Positions 9,901 through 24,356 of a stretch of 24,356 bases of DNA are shown here, one piece after another; position 1 is the first letter of the stretch; every line of letters starts with the position of its first letter. The DNA lies in contig MU646500.1 in NCBI GenBank assembly GCA_026770585.1, positions 427,923 through 452,278 of the forward strand, given 5' to 3'. Both the position numbers and the translations under genes were made by a program. This stretch comes from Baffinella frigidus (lineage: Eukaryota > Cryptophyceae > Cryptomonadales > Baffinellaceae). The notes below the pieces were generated by a model that was not told the origin of the DNA, made no database searches, and saw only the letters and a list, made by a program, of their open reading frames with translations.

Positions 9901-10946
9901 TAAGTGGCCGCTGACGCATTTTTTGTTCCGCAGCTGAAATTGACGCCGTCTGCCACCAAATGCTCCTGGCAGCTGCTCCTGTAAGACCCGACCCGGAAAC
10001 CATGAACCCTAAAATCTGAACCCTGAACCCTGAACCCTGAACCCTGAACCCTGAACCCTGAACCCTGAACCCTGAACCTAAACCCCAAACCCTAAACCCT
10101 TAACCCTAAATTCTTAACCCTACACCCCAAGCCCTAAGCCCTAAGCCCTAAACTCTAAACCCTGAACCCCAAACCCTCAACCCCAAACCTTGAACCCTGA
10201 ACCCTCAACCCTACAACCTAAACCCCAAACACCAAACCCTAAACCCGCGCTCACCCTGCCTCCCAGACTTTACCCCCCACTGAGAGATAATTGTATTGCT
10301 ATCGACACGGCCGCCATGTATGCACCCCGACGGAGGCTCTGCCAGCGCAGGGCATATCCCTTAAGTGGCGAGTAGGCCCATACGCCCTGCCGTAGGGCCC
10401 TAGGACCTGCCTAGGGACCTCTTGGCCGTCAAATTTGACGGCCTCGCCACTTAAGGGATAGCGAGGTGATGTGCACTCTACACGTTGCGTTTTTGGTGGA
10501 GGCGATAGCCGAATCCGGCTATTTGTCGTTGGGAGAATTTCGGTAGCATCCCGTGATTTCTCTCCCGAAGTGGCCGATTCGTGGTGCAAATAATGGAAAG
10601 ACTCTGTTTCGCCAGCTGAACGCTAGGCTCTTGCGCTAGGCTCTTGCATGAACCCTGCACCCTGAATCCTGAACCCTCAACCCTAAACCCTGGATCCTGA
10701 ACCCTAAACCCTAAACCCTAAACACCCTACACCCTACACCCTACACCCTAAACCCTGCACCCTAAACCCTGAACCCTAAACCCTGGACCCTATACCCTAA
10801 ACCCTAAACCCTAAACCCTAAACCCTAAACCCTAAACCCGAAACCCTGAACCTTCAACCAGGGAGGCGGTGGAGGCGAACCTGGACCCGCACGTCGACAC
10901 TGCCGAAAGCGTCCTCGCCATCCTCAAGGAGCAGGACACTTCCTAG
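6910..10946 (+). CDS. Six-exon gene, predicted 110-residue protein of unknown function
   Basis: Proposed exons: 6910-6924, 7113-7199, 8717-8764, 9059-9109, 9934-9980 and 10862-10946. They sum to 333 nt, with a TAG at 10944. The phases agree at every junction. Exon 2 encodes KITGGKLVKYVKAMHKDISL then PIEEWVDKK, exon 3 IQGDLAKIAKFLADLQ, exon 4 PGEDKGKPIPQQKLCVM, and exon 6 EAVEANLDPHVDTAESVLAI then LKEQDTS. Donors are GTCCGC, GTCCGT, GTACCT, GTAACT and GTAAGA; acceptors end in AG. Exons 2, 3 and 6 look like real helical, charged coding sequence. Exon 1 is the weakest. Exons 4 and 5 also have an attractive alternative frame (TKTLRHAEIDAVCHQMLLAA) that would need an unseen exon upstream. Introns 3, 5 and part of 4 are C-rich CCCTAAA-like repeats. 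I do not recognise the family. Confidence 0.55.
7200..7578 (+). other. First half of intron 2 of the six-exon gene
   Basis: No exon or repeat recognised. The intron continues to 8716 and is largely occupied by the inserted inverted-repeat elements listed below. Confidence 0.35.
7579..7707. mobile_element. Hairpin MITE-like element with perfect central palindrome
   Basis: The ends CCGCCACGCAAGAGGGCGCGA and TCGAGCCCTCTGGCGTGGCG are imperfect inverted repeats. The interior contains a perfect 20-bp palindrome, TTTCGTCAGATCTGACGAAA (7617-7636). No coding capacity. Confidence 0.5.
7746..7952. mobile_element. MITE-like element with 40-bp terminal inverted repeats
   Basis: The left end CCACCAGCAACCCGTCGCAG, then TTTATCCCGGATCC, pairs with the right end GGGATACGCTGCGACGGGTT, then GCTGGTGG. 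The interior has the palindrome CAATGAGATCTCATTG (7877-7892) and TTCAAATTCATTCCTTTGAA. Inserted in intron 2 of the six-exon gene. Confidence 0.7.
8323..8465. mobile_element. MITE-like element, CTAGCTCTG family, copy 2 (inverted)
   Basis: Reverse complement of 2331-2469 with moderate divergence. Shared blocks include GTCAGCCCGGGCT, CGCTCCAAAGCTGACGGCTT and CCAACCCGAGTGAGGCAGAG. Inserted in intron 2 of the six-exon gene. Confidence 0.7.
8795..9050 (+). repeat. Telomere-like C-rich intron repeat (CCCCAAAC/CCCCACA/CCCTAAA)
   Basis: Nearly all of intron 3 (8765-9058). The sub-block 8824-8862 is a CCCCACA heptamer array; others are CCCCAAA and CCCTAAA. It is interrupted by a duplicate of the start of exon 4. 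Confidence 0.8.
8941..8980 (+). pseudogene. Truncated duplicate of exon 4 of the six-exon gene
   Basis: CCCAG|CCTGGAGAGGAGAAGGGAAA repeats the acceptor and first codons of exon 4 (TCAG|CCTGGGGAGGACAAGGGCAA at 9059), giving PGEEKG against PGEDKG, then diverges. It is followed by CCCTAAA repeat. Confidence 0.6.
9110..9807 (+). other. Intron 4 of the six-exon gene, with an inverted copy of a dispersed repeat
   Basis: AT-richer sequence without a credible exon. 9500-9565 is an inverted copy of the repeat at 3947 (CAACGTGTAG, then GACACAGCCTCGGTGGGCGC, then GCATACATGGCGGCC). 9375-9431 forms a weak hairpin (AAATTTACTACACAA and TTGTGTGGTAATTT). Confidence 0.45.
9808..9907. mobile_element. MITE-like hairpin, CCACTTAGCAG family, copy 1
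   Basis: CCACTTATCAGCCACCGTTG...TTCACCCA pairs with TGGGTGAGAATCGGTGCCTG, then CTAAGTGG. The same ends occur at 21493-21636. It sits just upstream of the acceptor of exon 5 (9934). Confidence 0.65.
9996..10250 (+). repeat. Telomere-like array, CCCTGAA then CCCTAAA variants
   Basis: 10017-10078 is a nearly pure run of CCCTGAA heptamers. The rest mixes CCCTAAA, CCCTAAG and CCCAAA. It lies in intron 5. Confidence 0.85.
10304..10495 (+). repeat. Dispersed repeat, GTATGCACCCCGACCGAGG family, copy interrupted by a MITE
   Basis: GACACGGCCGCCATGTATGC, ACCCCGACGGAGGCTCTGCC, then after a MITE GTGATGTGCACTCTACACGT. This matches 3947-4034, with the MITE nested at 10355-10460. Confidence 0.6.
10355..10460. 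mobile_element. Nested MITE with 18-bp perfect TIRs
   Basis: TATCCCTTAAGTGGCGAG at 10355-10372 is the exact inverse of CTCGCCACTTAAGGGATA at 10443-10460. The interior is also palindromic (GCCGTAGGGCCCTAGG, then GGCCGTCAAATTTGACGGCC at 10424-10443). Located in intron 5. Confidence 0.75.
10648..10859 (+). repeat. Telomere-like CCCTAAA/CCCTGAA/CCCTACA array
   Basis: Heptamer array up to the acceptor of exon 6. 10722-10752 is a CCCTACA sub-block and 10792-10842 a near-pure CCCTAAA block. Confidence 0.85.
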
Positions 10947-11387: not shown

Positions 11388-11601
11388 TCTTAGAGTGCGA
11401 TAACCTCTGTGGGAGGCGTTGGTACGTTGCCGCCGTGTCAGTATCAAATAAAGTGCGGCCGTTTCCAACTACAAGTGCGTTCGTACATTGTGTCGCAAAG
11501 GTGACGGCCCTTCCTGTCTCTGATGCCCTTCGTCAACAACGGCATTGCACTGCACACGGTGTGCGGTTATCTAAGCAGTCTTTATTTTGAAGATTCACTT
11601 C

Positions 11602-11695
11602 ATCTCGAATACAAGAGCCCCCCCTCCAGATCCACCTCAGGGTCCTAAAGACAGCTGTAGGCTCGGAACGGGGGGCGGGTTCATGTATTCGAGAT
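11602..11695. mobile_element. Small MITE-like hairpin
   Basis: ATCTCGAATACAAGAGCCCC at the left pairs with GGGCGGGTTCATGTATTCGA, then GAT, at the right. The arms are GC-rich and the interior is short. Confidence 0.55.
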
Positions 11696-11699
11696 TCCC

Positions 11700-12075
11700 T
11701 TGTAGCTAGGCGCACGACGCACCCGCCTCGGGAGCACGGGCGAGTTCTGAGGCGCACCTCAGGATAGGCCCGCCTCCGGGCGTCCTGCAGCCCGCCTCGG
11801 GGCAAGAGGCCCGTCCTACACTCCGTTCTCACCTCCCTCTCTCTCCCTCTCCCTCTCTCACCCTCTCCCTCTCTCTCTCTCTCACTCCGTCCCCACAACG
11901 CGCCCTGCCCGGGCGTCCCCGCGTCGACTATGTCTACTCTCTAAGTTGTCCTAATGACTCTACACGCTCCCCGCTACACGCTCCCCAGGTCACAGCCCCC
12001 CCCCCTACTTATTCTACACGCTCCCCACGTCTTACTTTACACGCTCCCCAAAGTCACAGCCCCCACCCCCCTACG
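11700..12075. other. Intergenic: GC-rich duplicated motifs, CT tract, CTACACGCTCCCC repeats
   Basis: No gene seen. 11835-11885 is a CT-rich simple repeat. 11959-12052 has four CTACACGCTCCCC-like units, and GTCACAGCCCCC occurs twice. This is between the stop of the plus-strand gene and the last recognisable exons of the minus-strand WD40 gene. Confidence 0.5.
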
Positions 12076-12760
12076 CCTAGGGGTCTGGGCGGATCGTGTC
12101 CTATGTCGTGTCCCTGTGTCTTGCCTCGGGGAATGGACACGAGCACGGACACGGTGCTTTGGATGGACGCACACCCGTGTGGATACCCGGCCAGAAAGCA
12201 AGGGCATTTGCAGGTAGGTTGCGAAACTCCTACGGAGTGGGGAACTCCGACGTAGTCACCCCAACCTACCCACATCGTTGCTGCGCCGGATGACAAGAGG
12301 CTTCCTGAGGCTGTGAGGACCGGGTCCTGGACGGGCCCGCCTCGGGAGAAAAGGGCTCCAAGGATGCCGTTCAGGTCCCTCACAGAGGCAGTGCCCCCAA
12401 GGAATCCGGGCTCGGCAGTGGGTAAATTGGGAAGCTCCAACTGGGTGGGGAACTCTGACATAGTCACCCCACCCACTTGGATTTCCCAACCTACCCACAA
12501 CCGACGACCGCAGTGGCCCGAGGGATCCAGGGTCGGGATCATCCAGGCTGCACGCACTCCTCGAAGGTCGCGAGACACGAGAACGGACAAGGCGCCGTTG
12601 GACGGAATCAGGGCTCGGCAGTAGCCCGGATCCCAAGTGATGCAGGGTCGGGCCATCCGGGTTGAACGAGACCTCCTGAACCATTGCCTCGAGGACAGTG
12701 TCGAGTGCCTCCCGGGACGCCCTCGAGGCTTTGGTTGAGGAGACGTGACGATCATGGGGG
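12076..12760 (-). pseudogene. Downstream part of the WD40 gene: degenerate tandem WD-exon copies, not resolved
   Basis: Several GC-rich blocks resemble WD exons on the minus strand but could not be joined. VQEVSFNPDGPTL is at about 12640-12685. TASGSLLSSGAATMW is at about 12272-12315 and ends in TGG|GTAGGT, and RRLW|GTAGGT at about 12490 has the same donor. Two or three blocks contain VLVSRDLRG- or VLVSIPRG-like stretches (12565 and 12130). GAACTCCGACGTAGTCACCC (12241) and GAACTCTGACATAGTCACCC (12449) are one duplication. The functional 3' end of the gene is probably among these copies, but which are live cannot be told. Confidence 0.4.
12643..12737 (-). pseudogene. Diverged duplicate of exon 12767-12823
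   Basis: AAGCCTCGAGGGCGTCCC and GTTCAACCCGGATG correspond to AGCCTAGAGGGACACC and GTTCAACCCCCATG of the functional exon. A third, weaker copy is near 12535-12575 (CCTGGATGATCCCGACC). Spacing is about 105 bp. Confidence 0.45.
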
Positions 12761-12766
12761 TTGAAC

Positions 12767-15700
12767 GATTTCCTGGATGGTTGCGAGAGCGGAGACGCGC
12801 CCCTGGTGTCCCTCTAGGCTCTTCTGTTGCCGGTTTCCGACGGTCAGGGTTTGGGCATTCGGGGTTCAGGTTTTGGGTTTTGGGATGCGAGAGTCGGGGT
12901 TCAGGTTTCGATTTTCGGTTTTCGGGTTGGGGGGTTTCACGTGTGCGGGTCTCAGGTTTCATTTATTTTCTCGGGTTTTGGGTTTCGGGTTTCGGGTTTC
13001 GTGTTTCGGGTTTCGGGATTCGGCATTCGAGTTTCGGACTTTTTCGGGGATTTGTTTGGGGGGTGGGGGCATACCAGGATGGCGAGGTTGTCCGCACTGA
13101 GGACTACCAGGCCTGCCCCGGTCATCGTCGCCGCTACGATCGCACGCCCCCTGCATTAGGGTTCAGGGCTCAGGGTTCAGGGTTGAGGGTTGCTGCTACG
13201 ATCGTACGCCCTCTGGATTAGGGTTCAAGGTTCTGGGTATAGGGTTTGGGGTTCTGGGTATAGGGTTTGGGGTTCTGGGTATAGGGTTTGGGGTTCTGGG
13301 TATAGGGTTTGGGGTTCTGGGTANNNNNNNNNNNNNNNNNNNNNNNNNNNNNNNNNNNNNNNNNNNNNNNNNNNNNNNNNNNNNNNNNNNNNNNNNNNNN
13401 NNNNNNNNNNNNNNNNNNNNNNNNNNNNNNNNNNNNNNNNNNNNNNNNNNNNNNNNNNNNNNNNNNNNNNNNNNNNNNNNNNNNNNNNNNNNNNNNNNNN
13501 NNNNNNNNNNNNNNNNNNNNNNNNNNNNNNNNNNNNNNNNNNNNNNNNNNNNNNNNNNNNNNNNNNNNNNNNNNNNNNNNNNNNNNNNNNNNNNNNNNNN
13601 NNNNNNNNNNNNNNNNNNNNNNNNNNNNNNNNNNNNNNNNNNNNNNNNNNNNNNNNNNNNNNNNNNNNNNNNNNNNNNNNNNNNNNNNNNNNNNNNNNNN
13701 NNNNNNNNGGGTTTGGGGTTCTGGGTATAGGGTTTGGGGTTCTGGGTATAGGGTTTGGGGTTCTGGGTATAGGGTTTGGGGTTCTGGGTATAGGGTTTGG
13801 GGTCATGGCTGCTTCTACGACGGCACGTCCCCTGAAGGGTTTGGGGTGAACGGTTTAGAAGTTGTGAGAGGGGGTGGAGGGGGGGAGGGTTCAGGGTTTA
13901 GGGTTTGGGGTTTGAGGTTTGGGGTTTAGTGTTTAGGTGACGCACGCCCTCTGCAGCGGGGTTGAGGGTTTGGGTTTAGGGTATAGGGTTTCTCAAACGA
14001 ATGCCCTACCCAACGGCCCTGCGTGGAAACACCAACGCTTAGTGTTTCGGGGTGCGGTTTATCGTTTCGGGTTTTGGGTTTCGGGTTTCGGGTTGTGGGT
14101 TTCGGGTTTCGGTTTTCGGGCTTAGAATTCATGGTTCCCCAAAGTTGTGGTTTCGGTTTCGGGCTCAAGGTTCCCCAAAGTTGGGTTGCGAGGAACCACC
14201 GGAGTGCCCACACGACGCCCTGCTCCCCCTCCACACGGGGTGGTTCGGGTTACGGTGTATGGTTTTAAGGTTGTAAGGTTTTGAGTTTTGGGTTTAGGAT
14301 TTCGGGATAAGGGTTTAGGATTTGCCCCTCCGACCCGAGTGGTTCGGGGAATTACCCGAGGGCCCACGCGATGGCCTGCCCCCCCTCGAGCCCCTGCACG
14401 CGCCGCACTGGGAGGGTCCGCTCTGCTGCGAACGAAAAGATTTGTCAATCGCCTGCTACGAACGAGCCGACGAGCCACGCAGAGAAAAGTCAACACCTGC
14501 GAATGATGATCTCCGCGATTAACCTAGGCGACGGGATGCAACCCCTCGAGCCCCTGCATGAGTCAAACTGGGAGGGTCCGCTCTGCTGCGAACCAGCCAT
14601 ACAATAGTCAACCGCGATCAGCGCGAAAAATATGCAACATCTGCAAACGATCTCTGTGATTAGTCAACCGTGATGCTGCGAACGAGCCGCGCCGCGAATC
14701 CCCCACTCCCTTGTCCAAACGATCGTGGAGTCCCACGAAACCACGGGCGCGGCGCACCGGCGTCGGGCGAGTGGACGCGCCCGGCCACTGCGCGAGCTTC
14801 CACACCAGCGTGTCGGTATCCCCGACGGAGAGCAGACTCTTTCTCGCTCGCGCCTTTCTGGTACCAAAACCTCTGATAAAACCAGGAAATGGCTCCAAAC
14901 TCTTTCTCGTTTCCCTGATATTTGAGGCTGATATCCTGTCCAGCGAGCCTGAAGTGGTTGCGTACCGGCGTCGGGCGAGGGGGCGGCGGACGCGCCCGGC
15001 CACTGGGCGGGCGTCCAGACCAGCGTGTCGGCATCCCCGACGGACAGGAGTTTCGCGCCGTCTGGGGAGTACCTGCGACGGCAGTGAGGATGGCGTGAGA
15101 TCAGGCATGGTCAGGCGCAATAAACATTGTCTCTGTTGCTGAAATGTTGACGATGCTATCCCCTGTGTATATATGGCGCAGGCGTGCAGTCGAGCGTGTC
15201 CCTGAATATGTGGGGCTATCTCCTCAATGAATGGCGCGGGCGTCCACACGAGCGTGTCCGCGTCGCCGACGGAGAGGACTTTCGAACCGTCTGGGGAGTG
15301 TCTACGGGGGGGGGGGGGAGAATCAATCACAACGGTTGCTGACATGTAGACGGCCCTCGATGCAAACGGCGCTCCCGCCTTCATAAACGCCCCCCCCCCT
15401 CCCCAATAAACGGCGCCCGTGCAACCCTAACCCCTGAACCCCAACCCCTAAACACTAAACACTGAACACGCAACGCTCAGTGATCAACGATGAACACTGA
15501 ACGCTAGACCCATCGATACCGGATGCTCCAGACCCGCCCGTGGTGTCCGGGCGCCTGGCAGCTGCTCGCCGCCGCACCGACCTAAACCCTCTCCGTGTGA
15601 CCCAGACCCTAACACCTAAACCCTCATCCCTGAACCCTATCCCCACACCCGAACCCTCAACTCCTCAACCCCACTCCCTTACCTTCGGAACTCTCACCCA

Positions 15701-18700
15701 AACCCTTAACCATAAATTGTAGAACCCCAGAACCCCACACCATAAATCTACCCTCCCGTGGCGTCTGGGCGCCAGGCAGCTGGTCGGTGCCGCGCCGCCC
15801 GGCGCATGGCACCCCAAAACCTAAACACTCACCCCTAGCACGCGAGCACCCTCACCGCTAAACGCTCAACCCTGGAAGTGTAACCTTAAACCCTAGAACC
15901 ACAACCGCACACCATAAACCTTGAACCGTAAACCGTCCGTAAACTAAACGCAATTCCTGAGTAAACTAAGCGTACTCCCTAAGCAAAGTAAGCCTGAATG
16001 ATGGATACCGGATGCTCCAGACGCGGCCGCGGTGCCCGGGCGCCTGACAGCTGGTCGGCGCCGCGCCCCCCGGCGCCGCCTGCATCACGGTATTGTGTTG
16101 AGTCTTCAGTGCTTAAGGTCCTTCTGGTTTAGTTCTTGGTGCGTAGGGTTCAGATTTTCCGGTTCGGGTTCCGGCGCCGCCTGCATCAGGGGTTCGGGCT
16201 CAGAAACCTGGCGGTTTAAACCCTAAAGGTCGAAATAGCTCCAACGCCAAGCCAAAGTCTGAGATAGAATCGGGACTAGAGTATTGAAGGTTTGGGGTTC
16301 CAGGCGCCCAGGCCCAGGGGTCTGGCAGTTGGTCGGCGCCGCGCCGCCCGACGCCGCCTGCATCAGGCTTTCTAGTTCAGGCTGTAGGGCTTACGCTGCT
16401 CCTGGTTAAGGGTTTGGGGCTTAGGGATCCGATGTTCGGGCTTCGGGTTCCGGGTTCCTTGTTTCAGGTCAAGGGTGTAGGGTGTAGGGTGTAGGGTGGA
16501 GGGTGGAGGGTGGAGGGTGGACGTTTTTTGGGGTTTCGGCTTCAGGGTGCAAGGTTTTAGGGTTTTAGGAGTTAGGGGTTACCTGGTATTGGAAGGCGCA
16601 GGTGCACGCGCCCGCACCATCGTGCCCTATGAACCCTTGAAACCGTCAACTGTAAACCCATAAACACGTAAACCCTGAAACCAGTTCAAATCGACTCAAA
16701 CCAATTCAAATCCTCTAAACCCTCAAACCCCAACAAACGTACGACTAACGAATAACACACGTTAGTATTACGGGGCATACGCGACAGTACCTGGTATTGG
16801 AAGGCACAGGTGCACTTGCCCGTGCCGTCGTGCCCTGCGGTTTCGTGTTTCGTGTTTAGCATTTCGGGTTTCGGGCTTCGTGTCTATGGTTTCGGGTCAC
16901 AGACCCTACCGCTCGAAACACTACAGAGAACATGCAAAAGTTGGTTATTGGATCTTTTTTTAAGGAAACATGCCACAAGTGAGCAATTGGTGGTCACGTT
17001 ATCCCCGGATACCAGCGGGAGATGTGAATCGTAGCCTTTCGAGTGGAGTATGAACATGAGGGACCTCATCACGGTTTAGGGTTCAGGAATTTCTGGGTTA
17101 AGAATTGAAGGTTTATCGTTTTAAGGTTCAGGGTTTATGGTTTATAGTTTACATTTTATAGTTTATAGTTTATAATTTATAGTTTAGGGTGTTGAGGGTT
17201 GGGGCGAATGCGCACCTGGAAAGGAGTGCTGGAGGGTGAAGGTGCTCGGGTTCCAGATCTTGATCGTCGAGTCGGTCGACGCGGTTGCGATCGCTGATGA
17301 GTCCGGACTCCAGACGAGAGAGGTGATCTGCGCACCAAAAGCCCGTGACAACTTTTAGCGTGCAACTGACATCCTTTTGGATGAGCCGTGTGTGAAGCGT
17401 GGAGTAGTAAGTCGATCGACGTGGTTGCAATCGGTGACGAATGCGGACTCCAGACCAGAGACGTGATCTGCGAACAAGAATAAGTGCGATTGACTTTTGG
17501 ATTGCTGGTGATCAGGCTTCCGAGGATGCCACCGCATGCGATACGCCAGCACGCCACGAACGGGCATGATTACGTTGCCGCAGGAATCAGGCCGTCCACT
17601 CGTAACGGCATTCATAGGAATAGGCATACTGGAGACTCCTAGGGGGGTGCGGGTTCTTGTATTCGCGAGTAACCTCTCTAAGGGTGGACGCCCCAATTCA
17701 GCATCAACCTCTGAGTAGGACCTTGAGAGAGGGCATGCGCACTCCACCCGTGCTGAGACACAGATGCCCTACAGCCGAATCAGGAATCAGGCCGTACCGT
17801 GCCGCGGTGCTTCATCACCGGACGCAGCCCCCACGTCTCGAGCAGCTCCTGCTTTCGGGCTAGGGTTGAGGGTTTGGGGTTTGATGTCTAGGTTTTAGGG
17901 TTTATGGTTAGGGGGTTTAGGGTTTCAGGTTAGGGGGGTGTAGGTTTTGGGATTTGGGGTCTGGGGTCTGGGGTTTGGGGAGTAGCCTGGTCGCCGCCGC
18001 CGCCGTTTCCACCTCCGGGGAACGCCGACCCGCAGAGTTGATTGGTGTATGTGTTAGGGTTTAGGGAATTCCGTAATGCTTAAAGAAACCTATTGACAAG
18101 AGGGTGGAGGGGTGAGGGGTTAGCCTGGTCGCCCCCGCCACCGTTTCCCCCGCCGGGGAAGGCCGAGCCACAGAGCGTCGAGTCGAGCGGGGGCTGGTAC
18201 CGCTGCGTCGAGCACAGCTCCTGCCACCCGCAACCCGAAGCGCCTCAAATCAGTTTTTTGTACCAGCCATGTATTCCCCTACCTTGGCAAATCTCTAGGT
18301 TTGCCGTCTATTCACCCCGCTACGAAATCCCTAGGTCCCTAGGGATTTGCTACCGTAGGGTCCTGTGGACGGAAACAAACGCCGAGCCGCAGAGCGTCGA
18401 TTCGAGCGGGGGCTGGTACCGCTGCGTCGAGCACAGCTCCTGCTCAAAGGCGAAATCTTTGTTATTACCGTCAGGTTATGATCAATGAAAGGTACCAGCA
18501 CAGCTACCGTAGGGTCCTATGGCACGACCCCCCCCCCGCAGATTGTGGAGTCAACTGGCGAATGGTACAGCTGCGTCGAGCATAGCTCCTGCGCGAGATG
18601 CATCAGGGAGTATCGCTCTGCTACCTCATAACCTTTTGGTATTAATACTGGTACCTCTGCGTCGAGCACAACTCCTGCCCCAAAAGGAGCGACATGTATT

Positions 18701-20908
18701 AATTAATACCAACAATGTATGAGGCATCTGCGGTACCAGCACAGCTACCGTAGGCTCCTATAGACAGCAACGAACACGCATAGCCCCGTCGAATCGAGAG
18801 GTGGCTGGTACCGCTGCGTCCTGCCACCAGGTTATGAGTCAGTTCCAACAGGTTATGAGGTATCTGGGGTACCAGCACAGCTCCTGCCACCCGCAACCCG
18901 AAGCGGCTCAATTTTTTTTTTTGTACCAGCCATCTATTCCCCTACTGTAGCAAATTCCTAGTTCGGCCATCTTTTCAGCCCCCTAGGAAATCCCAAGGTC
19001 CCTAGATTTGCTAGAGCACACCTCCTGCGCGTGGGTTGTGTCAGTTTCCTTTGAAAACCAGAACCCAGCATCCTAAACCATCCAAATTTCGGTTGAGGGC
19101 CCTCAACCCCACACCGCGCACCCTGAACCGTTAACAATGGTTTAGGGAAACCATAAACCATGGTTTGGGGTATAAACCAACCCTGATGCGGACCGCGTTG
19201 CCTTCCGAGACCGCCAAGGAGGATCCCTGCACCCTCAACACTACACCCACTTGTAGGGTTTAGTGGATTAGGGTGTAGGGTTTAGGATATAGGAAGATGT
19301 GGAGGATACCGTCCACGAGGAGGTCTCGAAGAGGCGGACAGCGTTGCCTTCTGAGACCGCCAGGGAGGATCCGTCCGGTGAGAATTGCACCTGGTTTAGG
19401 GAATTAGGGTCTGGGGTTTACACCTGAAACAAACCGGATTCAGGCTGGATTGCACCTGTCGTTTTTTTGACACAGCGGAAAGGATTGCAACGTTTCGGTT
19501 AAACCCTAAACCGTTCCTGACCCGCCACCCACAACGGCGTATGAACCGTGCTCCCAGACAATCAGGTTATCAATCACTCTTGGGAGACGCTTTTCCCAAG
19601 GGTTTAGGGTTTAGGGATTAATGTTTTGGTTTTAGGGTTTGGGAGTGCTTTCCCACGGGTAACCAAGCAATCAGTTTATGTATGACACTTGTGCGAGAGT
19701 CGCTTACCCTGGCAACGTGTTTACTGTTTAGAACAGTAAACCAGTTCTCGACCCGAGTTTAGGGTTTAGGGTTTACTGTTGAGGGTCTAGGGTTTCGGGT
19801 TTCGGAGTTCGAGTTCCAAGTTTTGGGTTTCAGGTTTCGGGTTTCGAGTTTCGAGTTGCGAGTGTCGGGTTTCTGGTTTCGGGTCTCGGGGTTCGAGTTT
19901 CGGGTTTCTGGTTTCGGGTTTCGGGTTTCGGGCTTACCCCGAGGACGATGTCGTTGAGGGACAAGACCATGTTGTAGATACCGTCAAGCACCGACCAGAT
20001 CTTCACCGTCCTGCGGAAGGTTATCGACTCGTGAGTGGCTGCGAACCAAGAGTGGCTGCGAACAAAGGCAGGAACCGCCCTTCGCGAGATCCCCGCGACA
20101 GTTTGGTTCAGGGATCACGGATTTGGGTTTCAGGTTTCGGGTTTGATCTTTCGGGTTTCGAATGGCGGGTTTCGGGTTTCGGGGTTCTTTTCGGTTTCAG
20201 GTTTCGTGTGTCCGCATATAACCTGTCCTTGCCGCCAACGCTCGCGAAGATAGAGTCTTTCTCTCTGGCCTCTGACACTATGGTAGAGCCATCCCGATGA
20301 GCTTTTCACCTTCTTCTTGGTTGCGAGGTACTACTGTACAACGGTTTAGGCTTTCGGGTTTCGGGATTCGGAATCACGGATTAGGATGTTGAGGATTAGG
20401 GATTAGGGATCAGAGTTTCGGGTTTCGGGTTTCGTTTCGGGTGTTGAGTGCGCACTTGTCTTTGCCGCTGGCGCTCGCAAGGAGGGTCGAGTCCGGGTTT
20501 CGGTTTTCGTTTTTACGGGTGTCGGGTGTCAGGTGTTGGGGTTCGAGTTTCGTTTTGATGGTCGAGGGTTTAGGGTTGAGGGTTTCGAACTTGTCTTTGC
20601 CGCCGGCGCTCGCGAGGAGGATCGAGTCTGGCGAGAATGAGAGTGCCACCACCTACACTCGAGGCGTGCTGTAAGTCCATCCCTAGCTCGAACGACGCCT
20701 ACCACTCGAGGCGCTCAAGGCCACCACCTGGGGGGGTGCCGAAGAAAGGTTGGCCGCGGTTCGGAAACAATAAAACCCAATCAGGGTCCACAGGCTTCAC
20801 ACTTCTGGTTTTAGGGTTCAGAGTTTTGGCTACCGGGGTGCTGTTTCAGGGTTCATAGTTCATGTTCTAGGGTTTATGGTTGAGGGTTGAGGGTTGAGGG
20901 TTAAGGGT

Positions 20909-20961
<53 letters not shown>

Positions 20962-23043
20962 GGTGCAGGGTTGTGGGGTTTGGCTCCGTACCGGAGCGGC
21001 GTGTCCCTTGCACCGGCAGTGCTGGCTCACCTGCCACACCCAAAGACCTTGATCAATACCATCTCAAATTATGTTATTGGACAAACCGGGGGTAAATGTG
21101 TCGGATTCGACAAAATTAACCCGTGCCACTTCACCCAGTCCTGTGACTAGGACACCAGCGTTGGTTGTTGGTTCAGAGTTTAGTGTTTAGTGTTTAGTGT
21201 TTAGTGCTTGGGGTTTAGTGTTTCAGGTTTTAGTGTTGAGTGTTAAGTGTTGAGTGAGTGGGGTTCGGCGTCGGATCCTGGTGTAGGGAGTAGGGTTCAG
21301 GGCAACCGAGCAGTCGTCGCTGCCCTGCGGGGCGTCGAGCAAGAGCGGTGGGAGGGGGGACATGTTTTTCAAGTCATTCCCCGTACAAACTGTCACCTTC
21401 AAGACCGTTTTGGCGCCCTAAATCTACTCATCAGTTGACGGTTTGTATGGGGGTAGCCGTTGGCGAAATATTGCCGCTAGCAGGGAACTAATCCACTTAG
21501 CAGCCACCCCACCGACGACCTATTCACCTTGAATTCAAGGCGAAATTTCGGTTAGGTTCCAGGGCAATGGATCAGATTCTAGTACAAATTGTTTAGATGG
21601 ACTGCATGCGTGAAGTCCCCCGTAGCTGCTAAGTGGGTTGGCCGCTCACCGAGCAGTCGTCGCTGCCCACCGGCGCGTGGGCCGAGAGCGGAGGGCACCT
21701 GGTTTCGGGTTTCGGGTGCAGGGTTAAGGGTTCAGGGTTCAGGGTTCAGGGTTCAGGGTTTGGGCGCAAGGTTAAGGATTCAGGGGTTCGGGTTTCGGGT
21801 TTCGGGTTTCGTGTTTCGTGTTTCGGGTTTCGGGTTTCGGGTTTCGGGTCTAGGGTTCAGGGTTTAGAGTTTCGGGGCGAGGGGTTATGGTTTAGGGGTT
21901 GGGGGTTTCGCACGAGCAGCATTGGCCCCCGCGCGCGTGTCCGTCGAAGCAGTAGAGCACCCTCCCCGTGGATGTGTTCCAGACCTGGGGAGTTGGTTGA
22001 GGTTTTAGGGCTTAGGGTTTAGAGTTTAGGGTTAAGGGTTTCGGGTTTAGGTGTTTGGGTAGGAGGTTTTAACGTTTAGGGTTTAGGGTTTAGGTTGTAA
22101 GATTTAGGGTTTAGGGTTTAGGGTTTAGGGTTCAGGGTTCAGGGTTTAGGGTTTAGAGTTTAGGGTTTAGGGTTTAGAGTTTAGGGTTTAGGGTTTGGGG
22201 TTTAGGGTTTAGGATTGAGGGTTGAGGGTTTGGGGTTTAAGGTGTGTGGTTAAGGGTGTATGGTTCAGGGTGTGTGCTTCAGGGTTGATGATTTTGGGTT
22301 CATTGTTTCTGGTCGATGGTTTATGGGGTTTGGTTGAGGATTGAGGGTTGAGGGGTTACTCGGACGGCGAGGTCATCTGCTCCGGATGCGAGTAGCCCCC
22401 CCCCTGATGGTGTAAATGTTCAGTTTTTTGTTCGGGGTTTGGGTCTAGTTTAGGGGTTAGGAGTTAGCGTAGGGTTAAGCTTGTCAGGTCCCTGCGGCAT
22501 CAGCGTGCCAGCGCCAAATTCCTCGTGGGGGTTCGGCTGTTTCCGAGCGCACTTTTGGGCACCGCTGTGGCGTCAGCCTCCAGGCACGCGCTTCGCTTGG
22601 CCTCATGCCACCATTCGAGGTGGTCTTTAACCCCTCTGAAGGTTTAGACGTACCGACGTTGAGGGCGACGGAGCGGACGGGGGCCGTGTGGCCGATGAGC
22701 GTGTGGTAGAGGTGTCCCGATGTGAGGTTCCAGATCTTGATTGAGCAGTCGTCGCTTCCTGTGCAAAGACATCACTCAGAGTGCCTTCCTGCAAAGAGCA
22801 ATCATACAAGAAACACCCAGGCTGTTCACTTCCGTGCAACCCGAAAGAACAGAACTCTGTTTTTGATTCTATTTCTGAGAAAAAAATCATCAGTCACTCA
22901 TGAAAAGGTCGGTAAAGTGAAAGGGTTCAGGGGGGAAAAGAAATCAATCACTTCCGCTCAAGTGAATTATTTGTCAAAAGTCATGGCTCACCGGAGACGA
23001 GGAGGGAGGACGAAGCCTCGGGCGCGATGATCGACTTCGCCGC
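12767..23043 (-). CDS. Large WD40-repeat protein gene; 17 phase-matched exons, 403 codons
   Basis: Exons (minus, 5' to 3'): 23043-22992, 22758-22654, 22403-22360, 21984-21914, 21698-21650, 21030-20992, 20652-20591, 20010-19938, 19390-19310, 18220-18125, 17327-17216, 16834-16791 (or 16626-16583), 16079-16009 (or 15581-15520), 15072-14966, 14425-14356, 13150-13075, 12823-12767. They total 1209 nt without a stop and the phases match at all 16 junctions. Blade motifs run across the junctions: GSDDCSIKIWNLTSGHLYHT, GGGLLASGADDLAVRVWN, VVALSFSPDSILLASAGGKD, KTVKIWSVLDG, VQFSPDGSSLAVSEGNAVRL, ITSLVWSPDSSAIATASTDS, VWSIRYSPDGAKLLSVGD, and KSLEGHQGRVSAL. This gives about nine or ten blades; one has no proper WD (CPPLSAHAPVGSDDCSVSQH) and one carries a Gly-rich insert. 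WD40 domains form beta-propeller scaffolds; the partner is unknown. The last donor (GTTCAA) is weak and the gene continues below 12767. Exon identity is strong; the exact transcript is inferred. Confidence 0.8.
12840..13060 (-). repeat. TTTCGGG-variant telomere-like array (intron)
   Basis: Between exons 13075-13150 and 12767-12823. Mostly GGGTTTC units on the plus strand, with a pure stretch at 12973-13020. Confidence 0.85.
13151..13323 (-). repeat. Telomere-like repeat with 21-bp tandem unit, left of gap
   Basis: 13160-13190 is GGGTTCA-type; from about 13229 it is a pure 21-bp unit, GGTTCTGGGTATAGGGTTTG plus G, running into the gap. An exon-start duplicate (GATCGTACGCCCTCTGGATT, about 13199-13217) is embedded. 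Confidence 0.85.
13324..13708. other. Assembly gap (385 N)
   Basis: Run of N inside the 21-bp tandem array, with the same unit on both sides. The gap is most likely collapsed tandem repeat, and its true length is unknown. Confidence 0.99.
13709..14010 (-). repeat. 21-bp array right of gap, then TTTAGGG-like repeat with exon-start duplicates
   Basis: The 21-bp unit continues to about 13803. Two further truncated copies of the start of exon 13150-13075 are embedded: 13804-13833 (minus strand CTTCAG|GGGACGTGCCGTCGTA) and about 13939-13957 (CTGCAG|AGGGCGTGCGTC). Confidence 0.7.
14011..14340 (-). repeat. TTTCGGG/TTTAGGG repeat with a truncated copy of exon 14425-14356
   Basis: 14050-14130 and 14240-14325 are telomere-like. 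14207-14240 (minus: GAGGGGGAGCAGGGCGTCGT, GTGGGCACTCCG|GTGGTT) duplicates the end of the exon at 14356-14425 (EQGVVWALR against GQAIAWALG). GTTCCCCAAAGTTG occurs twice (14132 and 14170). Confidence 0.55.
14525..14585 (-). pseudogene. Duplicate of exon 14425-14356 with an in-frame stop
   Basis: Same acceptor (TTCGCAG) and first 20 or so bases (CAGAGCGGACCCTCCCAGT), then TGA in frame (ERTLPV-stop) where the live copy reads ERTLPVRRVQGLEGGQ. The donor is not preserved. Offset from the live copy is 160 bp. Confidence 0.7.
14758..14852 (-). pseudogene. Third, 5'-truncated copy of the SPDG exon (copy C)
   Basis: LLSVGDTDTLVWKLAQWPGA is homologous to copy B at 14966-15072 (LLSVGDADTLVWTPAQWPGA). 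The CACGCTGGT and CAGTGGCCGGGCGCGTCC stretches are shared, and it ends CCG|GTGCGC. The YSPDG half is missing; a possible replacement acceptor is GAAAG. Confidence 0.65.
15190..15301 (-). CDS. Alternative SPDG exon (copy A), donor unclear
   Basis: The acceptor CCGTAG gives the same phase as copy B. It reads HSPDGSKVLSVGDADTLVWT, then PAPFIEEIAPHIQGHARL. Differences from copy B in the shared part include many silent ones (GGT/GGC, CTC/CTG, GGC/GGG, GAC/GAT, GTG/GTC). No good GT donor follows, and the frame stays open into copy B. It may be an alternative exon, a fused long exon, or a decaying copy. Confidence 0.5.
15422..15519. repeat. C-rich telomere-like repeat
   Basis: CCCTAAC, CCCTGAA, CACTAAA and CACTGAA heptamers on the plus strand. 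This is the opposite orientation to most introns of this minus-strand gene. Confidence 0.75.
15520..15581 (-). CDS. Alternative exon, copy d of the GHxGRVWSIR exon
   Basis: The minus strand reads TTTAG|GTCGGTGCGGCG...GTCTGGAGCATCCG|GTATCG. It encodes VGAAASSCQAPGHHGRVWSI, with phase 0 in and 2 out, identical to the exon at 16009-16079 (SCQAPGHRGRVWSI). Both splice sites are present. 62 nt against 71 nt. Confidence 0.6.
15582..16008. repeat. C-rich telomere-like repeat between exon copies
   Basis: Apart from copy c, this is degenerate CCCTAAA/CCCCACA/CCCTCAA sequence on the plus strand. GATGGATACCGGATGCTCCA (16000) and CATCGATACCGGATGCTCCA (15511) mark the duplicated exon ends. Confidence 0.65.
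15752..15810 (-). pseudogene. Copy c of the same exon, 3' end lost
   Basis: GCGCCGGGCGGCGCGGCACC, then GACCAGCTGCCTGGCGCCCA matches copy b, but the GTCTGGAGCATC end (VWSI) is missing. Confidence 0.6.
16300..16357 (-). pseudogene. Copy a of the GHxGRVWSIR exon, 3' end diverged
   Basis: The acceptor GATGCAG and AASGGAAPTNCQTPGPGRL correspond to AAPGGAAPTSCQAPGHRGR of copy b, but the GTCTGGAGCATC|GT end is missing. A still shorter piece (GCGCCGCCTGCATCAGG) is at 16174-16190. Confidence 0.6.
16370..16582 (-). repeat. G-rich telomere-like repeat with GGGTGTA and GGGTGGA blocks
   Basis: 16472-16520 is a run of GGGTGTA changing to GGGTGGA heptamers; the rest is GGTTTAG-like. Intron sequence. Confidence 0.8.
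16583..16626 (-). CDS. Mutually exclusive exon candidate, copy b (GHDGAGACTCAFQYQ)
   Basis: 44 nt between CATAG and GTAACC. Phase 1 in and 0 out, the same as the copy at 16791-16834. It provides the GH of the preceding blade and a CAFQYQ strand. Using both copies would shift the frame, so only one can be used in a productive transcript. Confidence 0.65.
16627..16735. repeat. C-rich repeat separating the twin exons
   Basis: Degenerate AAACCCT, AAACCAGTTCAAA and CTCAAACC units. Inverse in orientation to the neighbouring G-rich introns. Confidence 0.6.
16791..16834 (-). CDS. Mutually exclusive exon candidate, copy a (GHDGTGKCTCAFQYQ)
   Basis: 44 nt between CCGCAG and GTACTG. Joins in phase after SFP|G of exon 17327-17216 to make the canonical FPGHDG, and then to the exon at 16079 or 15581. 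It differs from copy b by three silent changes and two amino acids (T to A, K to A). Confidence 0.7.
17075..17200 (-). repeat. Telomere-like intron repeat grading into TTTATAG
   Basis: GGTTTAGGGTTCAGG changes into an AT-rich TTTATAG/TTTATAA heptamer run at 17125-17185. Confidence 0.75.
17412..17467 (-). pseudogene. 5' half duplicate of exon 17327-17216
   Basis: The acceptor GTTCGCAG and ITSLVWSPHSSPIATTSID match ITSLVWSPDSSAIATASTD of the live exon. The copy stops before STIKIWN and has no donor. Confidence 0.75.
17812..17860 (-). pseudogene. Relic of the Gly-rich exon start
   Basis: AAGCAG|GAGCTGCTCGAGACG (ELLETW) resembles GGCAG|GAGCTGTGCTCGACG (ELCSTQ) of the exon at 18220, then diverges. 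Confidence 0.4.
17861..17982 (-). repeat. G-rich telomere-like repeat
   Basis: GGGTTTA, GGGTTTG and GGTCTGG units on the plus strand, between copies of the Gly-rich exon. Confidence 0.8.
17985..18040 (-). pseudogene. 3' half duplicate of the Gly-rich exon 18220-18125
   Basis: LCGSAFPGGGNGGGGDQ is repeated exactly in protein, with silent changes, and ends at the same CAG|GCTA junction. The 5' half (ELCSTQRYQPPLD) is missing here. Retention of CAG|GC in both copies supports a GC-AG intron. Confidence 0.65.
18125..18220 (-). CDS. Gly-rich insert exon with apparent GC-AG intron
   Basis: 96 nt, phase 0 on both sides. It reads ELCSTQRYQPPLDSTLCGSA, then FPGGGNGGGGDQ. It lies between exon 19390-19310 (ending ETSSWT) and exon 17327-17216 (starting ITSLVWS), giving GDQ-ITSLVWSPD, a normal blade start. 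The donor must be CAG|GCTAAC; no GT fits the phase at that point. The part encoding ELCSTQRYQPPLD was amplified upstream (see the array at 18385-19030). Confidence 0.65.
18288..18360. repeat. Hairpin element AAATCCCTAGG...CCTAGGGATTT
   Basis: 18325-18348 is the palindrome AAATCCCTAGG..CCTAGGGATTT. The surrounding GCAAATCTCTAGG and CCTAGGGATTTGC form a longer imperfect stem. A diverged copy is at 18949-19012 (GCAAATTCCTAG ... CCCTAGATTTGC), next to a copied TTTTTTGTACCAGCCAT. Confidence 0.6.
18385..19030 (-). repeat. Array of exon-derived cassettes (GGTACCGCTGCGTCGAGCAC)
   Basis: Copies of the first part of the Gly-rich exon with its acceptor, reading GGTACCGCTGCGTCGAGCAC then AGCTCCTGC on plus, are at about 18412, 18560, 18649, 18803 and 18867, with a short piece at 19012. 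They are interspersed with GGTACCAGCACAGCTACCGT, then AGGGTCCTATGG (18491, 18731) and short palindromes (TTGGTATTAATACTGG; AATACATG.. near 18690). None keeps the whole exon. Confidence 0.65.
19184..19232 (-). pseudogene. Partial duplicate of exon 19390-19310
   Basis: GGATCCTCCTTGGCGGTCTC gives GSSLAVSEGNAVRI against GSSLAVSEGNAVRLFE in the live exon. Silent differences (CTG/TTG, TCA/TCG, GCT/GCG) predominate. No acceptor or donor. Confidence 0.7.
19238..19309 (-). repeat. Short telomere-like repeat between copies
   Basis: Changes from CCCTCAACACTACACCC to GGGTTTAGTGGATTAGGG, that is, it inverts orientation within 70 bp. Confidence 0.5.
19395..19935 (-). repeat. Intron with TTTAGGG and TTTCGGG blocks
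   Basis: 19598-19650 is TTTAGGG-like. 19757-19785 is TTTAGGG, then 19786-19935 is dominated by GGGTTTC up to the donor GTAAGC at 19937. AACCAGTTCTCGACCC and ACCGTTCCTGACCCG at 19500-19760 hint at further duplicated material without recognisable exons. Confidence 0.7.
20100..20345 (-). repeat. TTTCGGG repeat with a decayed copy of exon 20652-20591
   Basis: 20105-20215 is GGGTTTC-like. 20223-20262 encodes KDSIFASVGGKD and ends GACAG|GTTATA, against DSILLASAGGKDK in the live exon; the SFSP part is missing. Confidence 0.6.
20346..20590 (-). repeat. TTTCGGG/TTTAGGG repeat with second copy of exon 20652-20591
   Basis: 20456-20498 encodes PDSTLLASASGKDK with donor CAA|GTGCGC, close to PDSILLASAGGKDK. 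The 5' part (VVALSFS) and the acceptor are lost. Flanks are GGGTTTC and GGGTTGA units. Confidence 0.7.
20810..20975 (-). repeat. TTGAGGG-variant array
   Basis: 20878-20963 holds about twelve nearly perfect GGGTTGA heptamers. Intron between exons 21030-20992 and 20652-20591. Confidence 0.9.
21170..21300 (-). repeat. TTTAGTG-variant telomere-like array
   Basis: 21176-21206 is a TTTAGTG heptamer run, changing to GTTGAGT and GTTAAGT. Confidence 0.8.
21307..21352 (-). pseudogene. Duplicate of the GSDDCS exon end
   Basis: GGCAGCGACGACTGCTCG|GTTGCC repeats the end of exon 21698-21650 (GGCAGCGACGACTGCTCG|GTGAGC). The protein reads PLLLDAPQGSDDCS. The donor is weakened from GTGAGC to GTTGCC and the CGCAG inside could be a new acceptor. 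Confidence 0.6.
21379..21452. repeat. Imperfect hairpin
   Basis: CCCCGTACAAACTGTCA pairs with TTGACGGTTTGTATGGGG. Small fold-back sequence between the two GSDDCS exon copies. Confidence 0.5.
21493..21636. mobile_element. MITE-like element, CCACTTAGCAG family, copy 2
   Basis: CCACTTAGCAGCCACC at the left and GTAGCTGCTAAGTGG at the right are inverted. The same ends occur at 9808-9907. It separates the two copies of the GSDDCS exon, 14 bp from the donor of the live one. Confidence 0.6.
21705..21910 (-). repeat. TTTCGGG/TTCAGGG intron array
   Basis: 21726-21760 is GGGTTCA, 21785-21848 pure GGGTTTC (with GTGTTTC variants), then GGGTTTA. Between exons 21984-21914 and 21698-21650. Confidence 0.9.
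21995..22350 (-). repeat. TTTAGGG array, the most telomere-like block
   Basis: 22074-22210 is mostly exact GGGTTTA heptamers with TTCAGGG and TTTAGAG variants. The intron is bounded by donor GTAACC (22359) and acceptor CCCCAG (21985). Confidence 0.92.
22405..22653 (-). other. Intron between exons 22758-22654 and 22403-22360
   Basis: Partly telomere-like (22430-22480), otherwise unique sequence with a small hairpin GCCACCATTCGAGGTGGT near 22607. No exon copy seen. Confidence 0.5.
22759..22991 (-). other. AT-richer intron without heptamer repeat
   Basis: Donor GTGAGC at 22991 and acceptor TTTGCACAG at 22759. It joins TCC G|GA AGC to give LLVS-G-SDDCSIKIW. One of the few introns here not made of telomere-like repeat. 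Confidence 0.75.
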
Positions 23044-23163
23044 CTGCAACAGACCACGGTTGAGTAATCAGAGGTGGTCTCGTCCTCTTCCTAGTACTGA
23101 TCCTGACCCATCGCGTCCTCCCTCTGGTACAAAACCTGCCCGGGTAAGTCAACTGATGCGCGT

Positions 23164-23208
23164 GACGAGGAGGGAAGAGGCCTCCGGCGCGATGATCGAC
23201 TTTGCCGC
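23164..23208 (-). pseudogene. Duplicate of exon 23043-22992, donor lost
   Basis: The same CTGTTGCAG acceptor and AAKSIIAPEASSLLV with one Ser fewer. The four base changes in shared codons are silent (GCG/GCA, CCC/CCG, GCT/GCC and a Ser codon). The donor GTCTCCG|GTGAGC has become GTCACGCGCATC, so it cannot splice in the same way. Confidence 0.75.
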
Positions 23209-23254
23209 CTGCAACAGACCACGGGGTCACACTTTTTCGTGCTTCCATAATGAT

Positions 23255-23302
23255 GAAACCCTCAACCCTTAGCCTTCAACCCTCAACCTTCAACCCTCAT
23301 CC

Positions 23303-23341
<39 letters not shown>

Positions 23342-23465
23342 ACGCTCAACCCTCAACGCTCAACGCTCAACGCTCAACGCTCAACGCTCAACGCTCAACG
23401 CTCAACCTTCAACCCTCAACCTTGAACCCTCAACCCTCAACCCTCAACCCTATACAATAAACAAT
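23255..23465. repeat. CCCTCAA/CGCTCAA array
   Basis: CCCTCAA heptamers enclose an inner block of CGCTCAA (about 23341-23402). C-rich on plus, opposite to most repeats of this gene. Confidence 0.92.
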
Positions 23466-23611
23466 AAACCTTTCGCAGACCCCATATTTCTATATTCACT
23501 AAAGAGCAACCCCCCCATGGTACAATCGGGGCAGCAGAGCTCGCGGGGGTAGCTTTCCCTACACCCTGACCTCTGCACCCTACACCCTACACTAGAGTGT
23601 AGTGTAGCGTG

Positions 23612-23694
23612 CCCTGCGGGCGATGCCGGCGAGGAGGGCGTAGAGCTGCGAGGTGTGGTTCTGGTTCATCTCCTCCAGTTGGAGGACCTCAATC
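23612..23694 (-). CDS. Coiled-coil exon, copy d
   Basis: EVLQLEEMNQNHTSQLYALL, then AGIARRAR. It shares a 44-base identical block with copy c (23874-23960), while the flanks differ. Acceptor probably TTTAG; the donor is unclear. By position and strand it may encode a coiled coil N-terminal to the WD40 domain. Confidence 0.5.
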
Positions 23695-23870
23695 CTAAAC
23701 CCTACACCTCAAAACCTTGCACCCCAAACCCCTAACCTCTAATCTCTCACACCTAACCCCTAAACCCCTAAACCCTGAGGGCAATGCGGCTCAGGGCAGG
23801 TTTCCTTCACCCCAAACGCTAAAACCTAGATCCTAGATCCTAGATCCTAGACCCAAAACACTAGACCATA
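23695..23870. repeat. C-rich telomere-like repeat
   Basis: CCCTAAA, CCCCAAA and TAGATCC units, with TAGATCC three times in tandem at 23827-23848. Confidence 0.75.
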
Positions 23871-23873
23871 CAC

Positions 23874-23960
23874 CGTAAAGAAGCTTTCCTTTCGGGCGAT
23901 GTCGGCGAGAAGCGCGTAGAGCTGCGAGGTGTGGTTCTGGTTCATCTCCTCCAGTTGCGC
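23874..23960 (-). CDS. Coiled-coil exon, copy c (best-preserved)
   Basis: Acceptor GGAACAG, then AQLEEMNQNHTSQLYALLAD and IARKESFFT. A GTGTAT donor after 23874 is possible. Heptad-like Leu/Met/Tyr spacing suggests an alpha-helix or coiled coil. This copy has the longest open exon and a normal acceptor, so it is the likeliest functional one. Confidence 0.55.
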
Positions 23961-24005
23961 CTGTTCCAGGGATTACGGTTTGAGGTTTAAGTGTTAGGGT
24001 TTATG

Positions 24006-24055
24006 AGAGCGTAGAGCAGGGACATGTGGCGCTGGTTCAGCTCCTCCAGCTGCCC
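24006..24055 (-). CDS. Coiled-coil exon, copy b (diverged)
   Basis: Acceptor GAAGCAG, then GQLEELNQRHMSLLYAL. Shorter, with no clear donor; either a diverged alternative exon or a relic. Confidence 0.45.
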
Positions 24056-24204
24056 CTGCTTCAAGGTTGAGAGTTTCAGGTTCCAGCGCTGATTCAGCCC
24101 CAGCTTGTTTCGTTGACTCTCACAAATTTCACAGTGTGCGGCTTTGATTCAGCTTCGAGCGTGGGGTAAAGGGTTGAGGGTTCCAGCGCGATTCAGTCTT
24201 AGAG

Positions 24205-24248
24205 TAGAGCTGCGAAGTTTGACTCTGGTTCATCTCTTCCAGCTGCCC
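24205..24248 (-). CDS. Coiled-coil exon, copy a
   Basis: Acceptor AAAACAG, then GQLEEMNQSQTSQLYSK. There is no GT donor at the expected place, so it may be a relic. The gene continues beyond the right edge. Confidence 0.45.
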
Positions 24249-24255
24249 CTGTTTT

Positions 24256-24356
24256 GGGGTTTGGGATTGAGGTGTTAGGGATTAGGGTGTAGGGTTTAGG
24301 GTTTGGGATTTAGGGTTTAGAGTTTAGGGTTTAGGGTTTAGGGTTTAGGGTTAGGG
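24256..24356 (-). repeat. TTTAGGG array at right edge
   Basis: The last 75 bases or so are nearly exact GGGTTTA heptamers. By analogy with the rest of the gene this is intron, not a chromosome end. Confidence 0.85.

Follow-up and report, generated by a model that had tools for sequence, protein, structure and literature searches.

The stretch of DNA analysed here, referred to as the window, comprises 24,356 nucleotides of Baffinella frigidus (assembly GCA_026770585.1, 382 Mb in 1364 contigs; contig MU646500.1, or C198:427923-452278), and its right half carries a WD40 gene in which most exons are accompanied by partial copies of themselves. On the minus strand, from position 23960 to position 12752 of the window, 19 exons could be joined via canonical borders, giving one continuous reading frame of 453 codons closed by a stop; a preliminary description of the same DNA, made by a model from the letters alone, had joined 17. 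The exons are given below in the order of the gene, with the copy scores taken from the local alignments described further on.

23874..23960, minus strand, exon A (coiled coil), the 5'-most exon in the window; the gene runs on beyond the window
22992..23043, minus strand, exon B
22654..22758, minus strand, exon C (WD repeat), no copy at a score of at least 15
22360..22403, minus strand, exon C2, no copy at a score of at least 15
21914..21984, minus strand, exon D1, no copy at a score of at least 15
21650..21698, minus strand, exon D2, D2-D3 junction least certain
20992..21030, minus strand, exon D3, no copy at a score of at least 15
20591..20652, minus strand, exon D
19938..20010, minus strand, exon D4, no copy at a score of at least 15
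19310..19390, minus strand, exon E
18125..18220, minus strand, exon F, GC donor
17798..17848, minus strand, exon F2, no copy at a score of at least 15
17216..17327, minus strand, exon G
16791..16834, minus strand, exon H
16009..16079, minus strand, exon I
14966..15072, minus strand, exon J
14356..14425, minus strand, exon K
13075..13150, minus strand, exon L
12752..12823, minus strand, exon M (terminal), stop TGA, no copy above the control level

The exons are 39-112 bases long (mean, 72), and the 18 introns, of which 17 are GT-AG and one is GC-AG, measure 215-1205 bases. Splice sites were picked by eye; the least secure junction is D2-D3, where the model omits a VWQ stretch that immediately precedes D3. 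When compared with Pfam PF00400 (WD40), the 453-amino-acid product scored 133.5 bits against a cut-off of 27, and an earlier 376-residue draft of the product had scored lower (109 bits). The best 60 of 497 matched PDB sequences were WD40 proteins of various kinds and provided no lead. G+C content was 67.5 percent in exons (85 percent at third positions) and 53 percent in introns. Degenerate heptamer arrays related to TTTAGGG, with local variants, were seen at 12971-13803 and in many introns. The gene starts outside the window, and the 20 kb fetched upstream of the gene was all N.

The preliminary description had reported that single exons of this gene carry tandem extra copies. Every exon was locally aligned to all 18 introns as well as to the sequence at either end of the gene model (beyond exon A and beyond exon M), and matches scoring at least 20 were counted. 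At this threshold, exon-like copies were found in 16 of 38 exon/adjacent-stretch pairs, compared with none of the 342 non-adjacent pairs, the 380 antisense pairs, or the 380 first-order shuffled pairs; the antisense controls peaked at 19.8. In total, 22 copies were obtained from 11 of the 19 exons, 11 lying upstream and 11 downstream of the exon that they resemble. They were 77 to 95 percent identical to it, and each represented 27 to 93 bases of one exon. The copies are listed below, together with one copied intron flank beside exon F and one match at exon L that scored under the threshold.

24204..24246, minus strand, upstream half-copy of exon A with its acceptor but without the 3' end
24006..24053, minus strand, upstream half-copy of exon A, separated from exon A by heptamer-like filler
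23599..23681, minus strand, downstream copy of exon A without acceptor, its GT retained when the alignment is gapped
23164..23208, minus strand, upstream half-copy of exon B, retaining the acceptor with 16 bases of intron but not the donor
21307..21352, minus strand, downstream half-copy of exon D2, donor kept
20456..20496, minus strand, downstream half-copy of exon D, donor kept
20224..20258, minus strand, downstream half-copy of exon D, donor kept
19185..19226, minus strand, downstream internal piece of exon E, neither splice site
18874..19013, minus strand, copy of a 130-bp intron flank and the first bases of exon F, matching 18211-18352 (84.5 percent over 142)
18787..18820, minus strand, upstream piece of exon F that lacks the first 11 bases
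18648..18674, minus strand, upstream half-copy of exon F, acceptor kept
18536..18588, minus strand, upstream half-copy of exon F, acceptor kept
18378..18439, minus strand, upstream half-copy of exon F, 59/62 identical, acceptor kept
17987..18037, minus strand, downstream half-copy of exon F, seven differences, all synonymous, GC donor kept
17410..17467, minus strand, upstream half-copy of exon G, acceptor kept
16583..16626, minus strand, second, complete copy of exon H with acceptor and donor, equal in length and frame
16299..16357, minus strand, upstream half-copy of exon I, acceptor kept
15756..15805, minus strand, downstream internal piece of exon I, neither splice site
15520..15578, minus strand, downstream half-copy of exon I, donor kept
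15232..15299, minus strand, upstream half-copy of exon J, acceptor kept
14758..14847, minus strand, downstream half-copy of exon J, donor kept
14523..14585, minus strand, upstream copy of exon K with its acceptor and, as read by eye, an in-frame TGA
14202..14231, minus strand, downstream half-copy of exon K, donor kept
13189..13211, minus strand, upstream half-copy of exon L, score 17.0 (under the count threshold), within a 62-bp tandem unit (13133-13253)

As these data show, every copy stands beside its own exon. The preliminary description had argued for a repeated, exon-by-exon process that does not duplicate whole WD blades, and on both points it agrees with the alignments. Moreover, in a separate self-comparison of the gene half with heptamers masked, 27 of 27 repeat pairs were direct and within 1 kb. 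Among the exons that it had named by their first base, those at 23043, 21698, 20652, 19390, 18220, 17327, 16834, 16079, 15072, and 14425, together with the coiled-coil exon at 23960, each had a copy at the threshold, and its statements that the coiled-coil exon exists in four versions (the exon plus three copies) and that copy number reaches six (exon F plus five) were likewise confirmed. For the exon at 13150 (exon L), the alignments gave only 17.0 and 15.0, yet Tandem Repeats Finder independently detected a two-copy 62-bp unit at 13133-13253 with 83 percent matches and no indels. The copy claimed for the exon at 12823 (exon M) was not supported; its best matches scored 10.5 in the preceding intron and 16.5 downstream, under the antisense maximum. 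The 22 copies thus exclude the sub-threshold matches of exons L (17.0, 15.0) and M (16.5, 16.0) and a second one of exon J (15.5). No copy at a score of 15 or more was found in the stretches adjacent to six exons (C, C2, D1, D3, D4, and F2).

The copies fall into two mirror-image classes with respect to the splice sites. Upstream copies started within 2 bases of the exon start, with AG present, in 10 of 11 cases, and ended 4 to 69 bases short of the exon end, which none of the 11 reached. In 9 of 11 cases, conversely, a downstream copy ran to the exon end (to within 2 bases) and was followed by GT or GC; four of the 11 extended to within 3 bases of the exon start, and among those only the copy of exon H had AG. 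The acceptor was therefore kept in 10/11 upstream versus 1/11 downstream copies (Fisher P 0.0003), and the donor in 0/11 versus 9/11 (P 0.0002), both from a table read by hand with which a mechanical read-out disagreed in three cells. In two of these cells the motif lies outside the aligned part (AG for the copy at 15578 by 12 bases, GC for the copy at 23208 by 4 bases); in the third, the copy at 23681 had no mechanical GT, since its GT requires a two-base gap. By the same hand reading, 21 of the 22 copies are without one or both splice sites, and only the copy of exon H is complete. Copies "with their own acceptor", as the preliminary description put it, are hence the rule upstream and the exception downstream, and most are halves rather than duplicate exons in the usual sense. 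We refer to these half-copies as stumps.

Stretches elsewhere in the assembly were also inspected. Of 18 arbitrary 10-kb stretches, 11 were all N and seven were readable in whole or part (∼42.5 kb). The readable stretches contained 102 local direct and 2 local inverted repeat pairs (1 to 40 direct per stretch; pairs within one array are not independent), compared with 24 direct and 0 inverted in the gene half of the window and 6 and 1 in its left half. First-order Markov controls (the gene half and the seven stretches, five each) gave 0 direct and 0 inverted pairs. Polarity was examined in two of the seven stretches, one of which, L040, carries a gene for a dynein heavy chain (PF08385, E 9.3e-22). 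In L040 and the second locus, L046, upstream copies included the exon start in 13/14, AG in 11/14, and the exon end in 0/14 cases, and downstream copies had the end with GT in 3/3 and the start in 0/3; these exons, seven from the dynein gene and one from L046, were chosen after reading the sequence, and copies within an array are not independent. At 5659-6729 of L046 (minus strand), an exon is preceded by seven upstream stumps in a row, each cut between bases 52 and 62 of 120 and separated by heptamer-like filler. The variation within this eight-member stack resembles successive snapshots of one exon. L046 also contains a downstream half-copy identical to its exon (52/52), and on this ground it is plausible that the duplication process is still acting, as the preliminary description had proposed. 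The WD40 gene is not special, inasmuch as local repeats also occur elsewhere in the genome and the polarity recurs in two other loci; a process particular to this gene, as had first been supposed, is not supported by these counts. Other WD40 loci yielded 80 direct and 4 inverted pairs in 19 loci (nine window loci excluded); genuine WD repeats confound such counts, which were therefore not taken as evidence.

We propose, with a probability of about 0.6, that short local duplications, each spanning a single splice junction, left the copies behind as dead half-exons. In most such duplications one breakpoint would fall in the exon and the other in the intron, leaving a whole exon and a stump whose cut end faces that exon. 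A duplication across the acceptor would give an upstream stump (intron end, AG, and 5' exon part), and one across the donor would give a downstream stump (3' exon part and GT). Duplications within an exon would be weeded out by selection because the protein would change, whereas junction-straddling and purely intronic ones would persist, the intronic ones fading faster because neither side is constrained. Splicing would then have to pick the acceptor that comes last and the donor that comes first, a choice to be expected were exons recognised as short units. The source may be break repair, with fill-in and rejoining of staggered breaks and with heptamer or other filler. The positions, polarity, locality, and direct orientation of the copies and the recurrence at two further loci are observations, whereas the selective filter, the recognition of exons, and the repair of breaks as source are inferences.

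Besides the locality and polarity of the copies and the repeat counts elsewhere in the genome, several observations speak for this proposal. In the polarity tables the duplicate comprises an intron end and the adjoining exon part, the intron part being short in many copies. Similarity continued past the splice site, and its intron part scored higher than the best of six shuffles in 7/11 upstream and 10/11 downstream copies (46.6 and 17.2 for the upstream copies of I and B, for instance, against 3.4 and 4.0), although six shuffles make a weak control and shared AG/GT and heptamers contribute to these scores. Extension scores of zero at the cut ends are a consequence of local alignment and provide no evidence. 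In all five introns that hold both kinds of stump at a score of at least 20 (A-B, E-F, H-I, I-J, and J-K), the preceding exon's stump comes first, as local events predict; on the basis of this order, duplication of a whole intron or a jump back between haplotypes was rejected. When an exon and at least three copies could be compared, changes private to one copy were distributed 11:6:13 over codon positions in the WD40 gene and 9:7:7 in L046 (under a looser rule), as in untranslated sequence. Changes shared between copies, unlike private ones, lean to third positions. This pattern looks like that of untranslated copies taken at different times from a changing exon.

Other observations weigh against the proposal. 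Two downstream copies (19226 and 15805) have neither splice site, and the upstream copy at 18820 lacks the exon start. Beyond 10 bases, mean flank identity over 19 copies was near background (0.51-0.54 upstream and 0.45-0.59 downstream, versus 0.43-0.53 shuffled in either case), which is less than expected at such copy age had long intron stretches been included. Copy-exon offsets for the 22 copies ranged from 95 to 611 (median, 224), compared with a median of 49 for the exon parts; as the spacing usually exceeds the duplicated block, simple head-to-tail duplication is insufficient; in favour of the proposal, the 62-bp unit of exon L is a tandem case that has no filler. Exon-copy mismatches in the WD40 gene were distributed 34:33:82 over codon positions. 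Some third-position excess is expected even for a dead copy, since the constrained exon itself changes mainly at synonymous sites, but the ratio of synonymous to nonsynonymous rates was 2.4 to 3.5 (five mutation models; P 0.0003 to 0.14), versus a predicted value of at most 2 for a dead copy and a constrained exon. With only two copies comparable, copy-side changes were 18:19:41, and copy-copy differences were 29:27:60 (overlapping pairs). The excess was stronger at the other loci, at 8:5:29 over nine dynein copies (for two of the seven exons the frame read was a non-coding one) and at 6:5:49 over the eight copies in L046 (where a shared change counts more than once). Three of the nine dynein copies (0:0:10, 0:0:6, and 0:1:7) are nearly pure in this respect, which neutral decay of a self-copy does not explain and a diverged allele as donor would.

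The filler between copies consists of heptamers in some cases and of other sequence in others, and twice it matches pieces of a palindromic element in the left half of the window, namely by exon F (5861-5920 with 18315-18372, 75 percent) and in the F2-G intron (5850-5895 with 17615-17660, 78 percent). Left-half palindromic elements lie at 2570-2690, 5848-5955, 10356-10465 (by eye), and 11600-11704; those at 2570-2690 and 5848-5955 match each other in both orientations, and that at 11600-11704 matches 2570-2690 inverted. Related-looking palindromes (AACGAAAATTACTACAC...GTGTAGTAATTTTCGTTGG), which by eye resemble small inverted-repeat transposons, occur at 9365-9432 of the window and at 915-978 and 1300-1375 of L040, where they sit between dynein exon copies (by eye). 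After heptamer masking, no introner-type recurrent sequence common to the introns of this gene was found; heptamer arrays are shared, but these are simple repeats.

The near-pure dynein copies lead directly to one alternative, unlikely in our judgement but to be taken seriously, in which the stumps come from a diverged homologue (the other allele or a hybrid partner) by unequal exchange or repair from the other chromosome. It is a variant of junction-straddling duplication with a different donor. If the exons of the two versions differed mainly synonymously and their introns hardly aligned, a copied piece would seem to end at the splice site, which would account for the third-position excess, for the near-background flanks, and for the downstream copy of exon F with 7/7 synonymous differences. 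Synonymous divergence of such size is, on the other hand, large for alleles of one species, and private copy changes are not third-biased. Nor was a close relative seen among the 69 listed assembly matches to the 453-amino-acid protein (93 of 253 candidates scored): those outside C198 were at most 50 percent identical, and those on C198 were all inside the window; a paralogue as donor was thus rejected, none close being among the matches listed in this own-genome search. The third-position excess would also suit functional, mutually exclusive alternative exons, which likewise form single-exon tandem copies within a gene (PMC9013439). Such exons need both splice sites, and a copy with acceptor, donor, and an open frame in the same phase was found once among the 22. 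Exon H (16834-16791) and its copy (16626-16583) are both 44 bases long with AG and GT in the same frame, differ at two residues (T to A and K to A), and would shift the frame if both were used; they constitute the sole candidate alternative pair in the gene. For the copies at large this explanation is very unlikely, given the incomplete splice sites of the other 21, the frame-breaking gaps in the copies at 16357 (of I) and 15299 (of J), the TGA in the copy of exon K, and the lack of third-position bias in private changes.

Mobile elements could also be involved, if palindromic introner- or MITE-like elements (miniature inverted-repeat transposable elements) inserted near junctions and left long target-site duplications or excision breaks that provoked duplications. 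The palindromes between exon copies in L040, the related-looking one near 9365-9432 (by eye), and the matches of left-half palindrome pieces to filler speak for this idea, which we nevertheless regard as rather improbable. At tens of bases, the duplicated blocks are long for target-site duplications, and no long-distance similarity of filler to filler was found in the gene half, where all masked pairs were direct and local. Finally, two divergent haplotypes stitched end to end by the assembler would explain copies that have diverged at synonymous sites, and the scaffold does have N gaps. An artefact of this kind appears more improbable still than any of the above: two haplotypes cannot yield the five copies of exon F or the seven upstream ones of L046, the window has a single N gap, located in the K-L intron inside a heptamer array, and the order of the stumps is opposite to that produced by a jump back across a whole intron.

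Junction-straddling duplication has relatives among published systems. In the potato RdRp gene, a tandem genomic duplication across an intron-exon boundary created one new intron from one duplication through a cryptic donor (PMC4974935); in the WD40 gene, by contrast, there are many stumps of both polarities at most exons, and the frame is continuous without them. The Rogers model, described in the same paper, has an AGGT-containing exon segment duplicated to give an intron gain. Tandem duplication with an unchanged protein is common to both, but in that model the intron is made from the duplicate, whereas the stumps here lie inside long introns, away from the donor, and mostly have their own acceptor. 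In no case among the 11 upstream stumps does the start coincide with the preceding donor, and 10/11 follow their own AG; intron gain of the Rogers type was rejected on stump position and own acceptors. The Exonize survey of 20 eukaryote genomes (PMC12343006) reported partial, inter-boundary, and intronic events in more genes than full-exon ones, with generally fewer events in lower eukaryotes. Its catalogue likewise contains exon-like intronic matches, read there as possible degenerate exons; a polarity rule or a per-gene density is not given in the part of that report used here. Small tandem duplications at DNA breaks have been described as arising through Pol alpha-primase action (PMC8355091) and are similarly short, local, and direct. 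The fillers between copies would require an additional step, and for Baffinella this mechanism is only an analogy. Boundary-crossing duplication (with one case of intron gain) and partial and intronic exon duplicates are thus already known. Two mirror classes, dense and at more than one locus, appear to be new, no description of such a pattern at such density having been found in the literature searched, which is not proof of absence.

In the left half of the window, an event of the same kind was noted in a small plus-strand gene, whose terminal exon (FPEVKG...ALEF, stop) is partly copied 191 bp downstream (1970-2007 and 2161-2198). A second WD40 gene at the left edge (347-1078, minus strand) is represented by an open frame in which a single WD40 repeat (PF00400, 33.0 bits) accompanies a stretch resembling a coiled coil. 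Rfam at gathering thresholds and tRNA scans found nothing, and one 567-base query of a phage collection gave no match.

More broadly, and only tentatively, introns across this genome may grow mainly by duplications astride splice junctions, storing dated or allele-marked exon fossils, with splicing that withstands decoy acceptors upstream and decoy donors downstream. On the same tentative footing, the near-synonymous stumps may mean that many were copied from strongly diverged alleles, the homologous chromosome having served as repair template in a lineage that is hyperdiverse or a hybrid. If the pattern is general, it would provide a direct view of intron lengthening in which each stump marks a duplication breakpoint and selection on the mRNA sorts the stumps into two mirror-image classes. 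Multi-copy stacks could then date changes in an exon. Gene finders may call stumps with good acceptors or donors as exons, and, again if the pattern is general, such genes would be natural tests of how splice sites are chosen among many near-identical ones.

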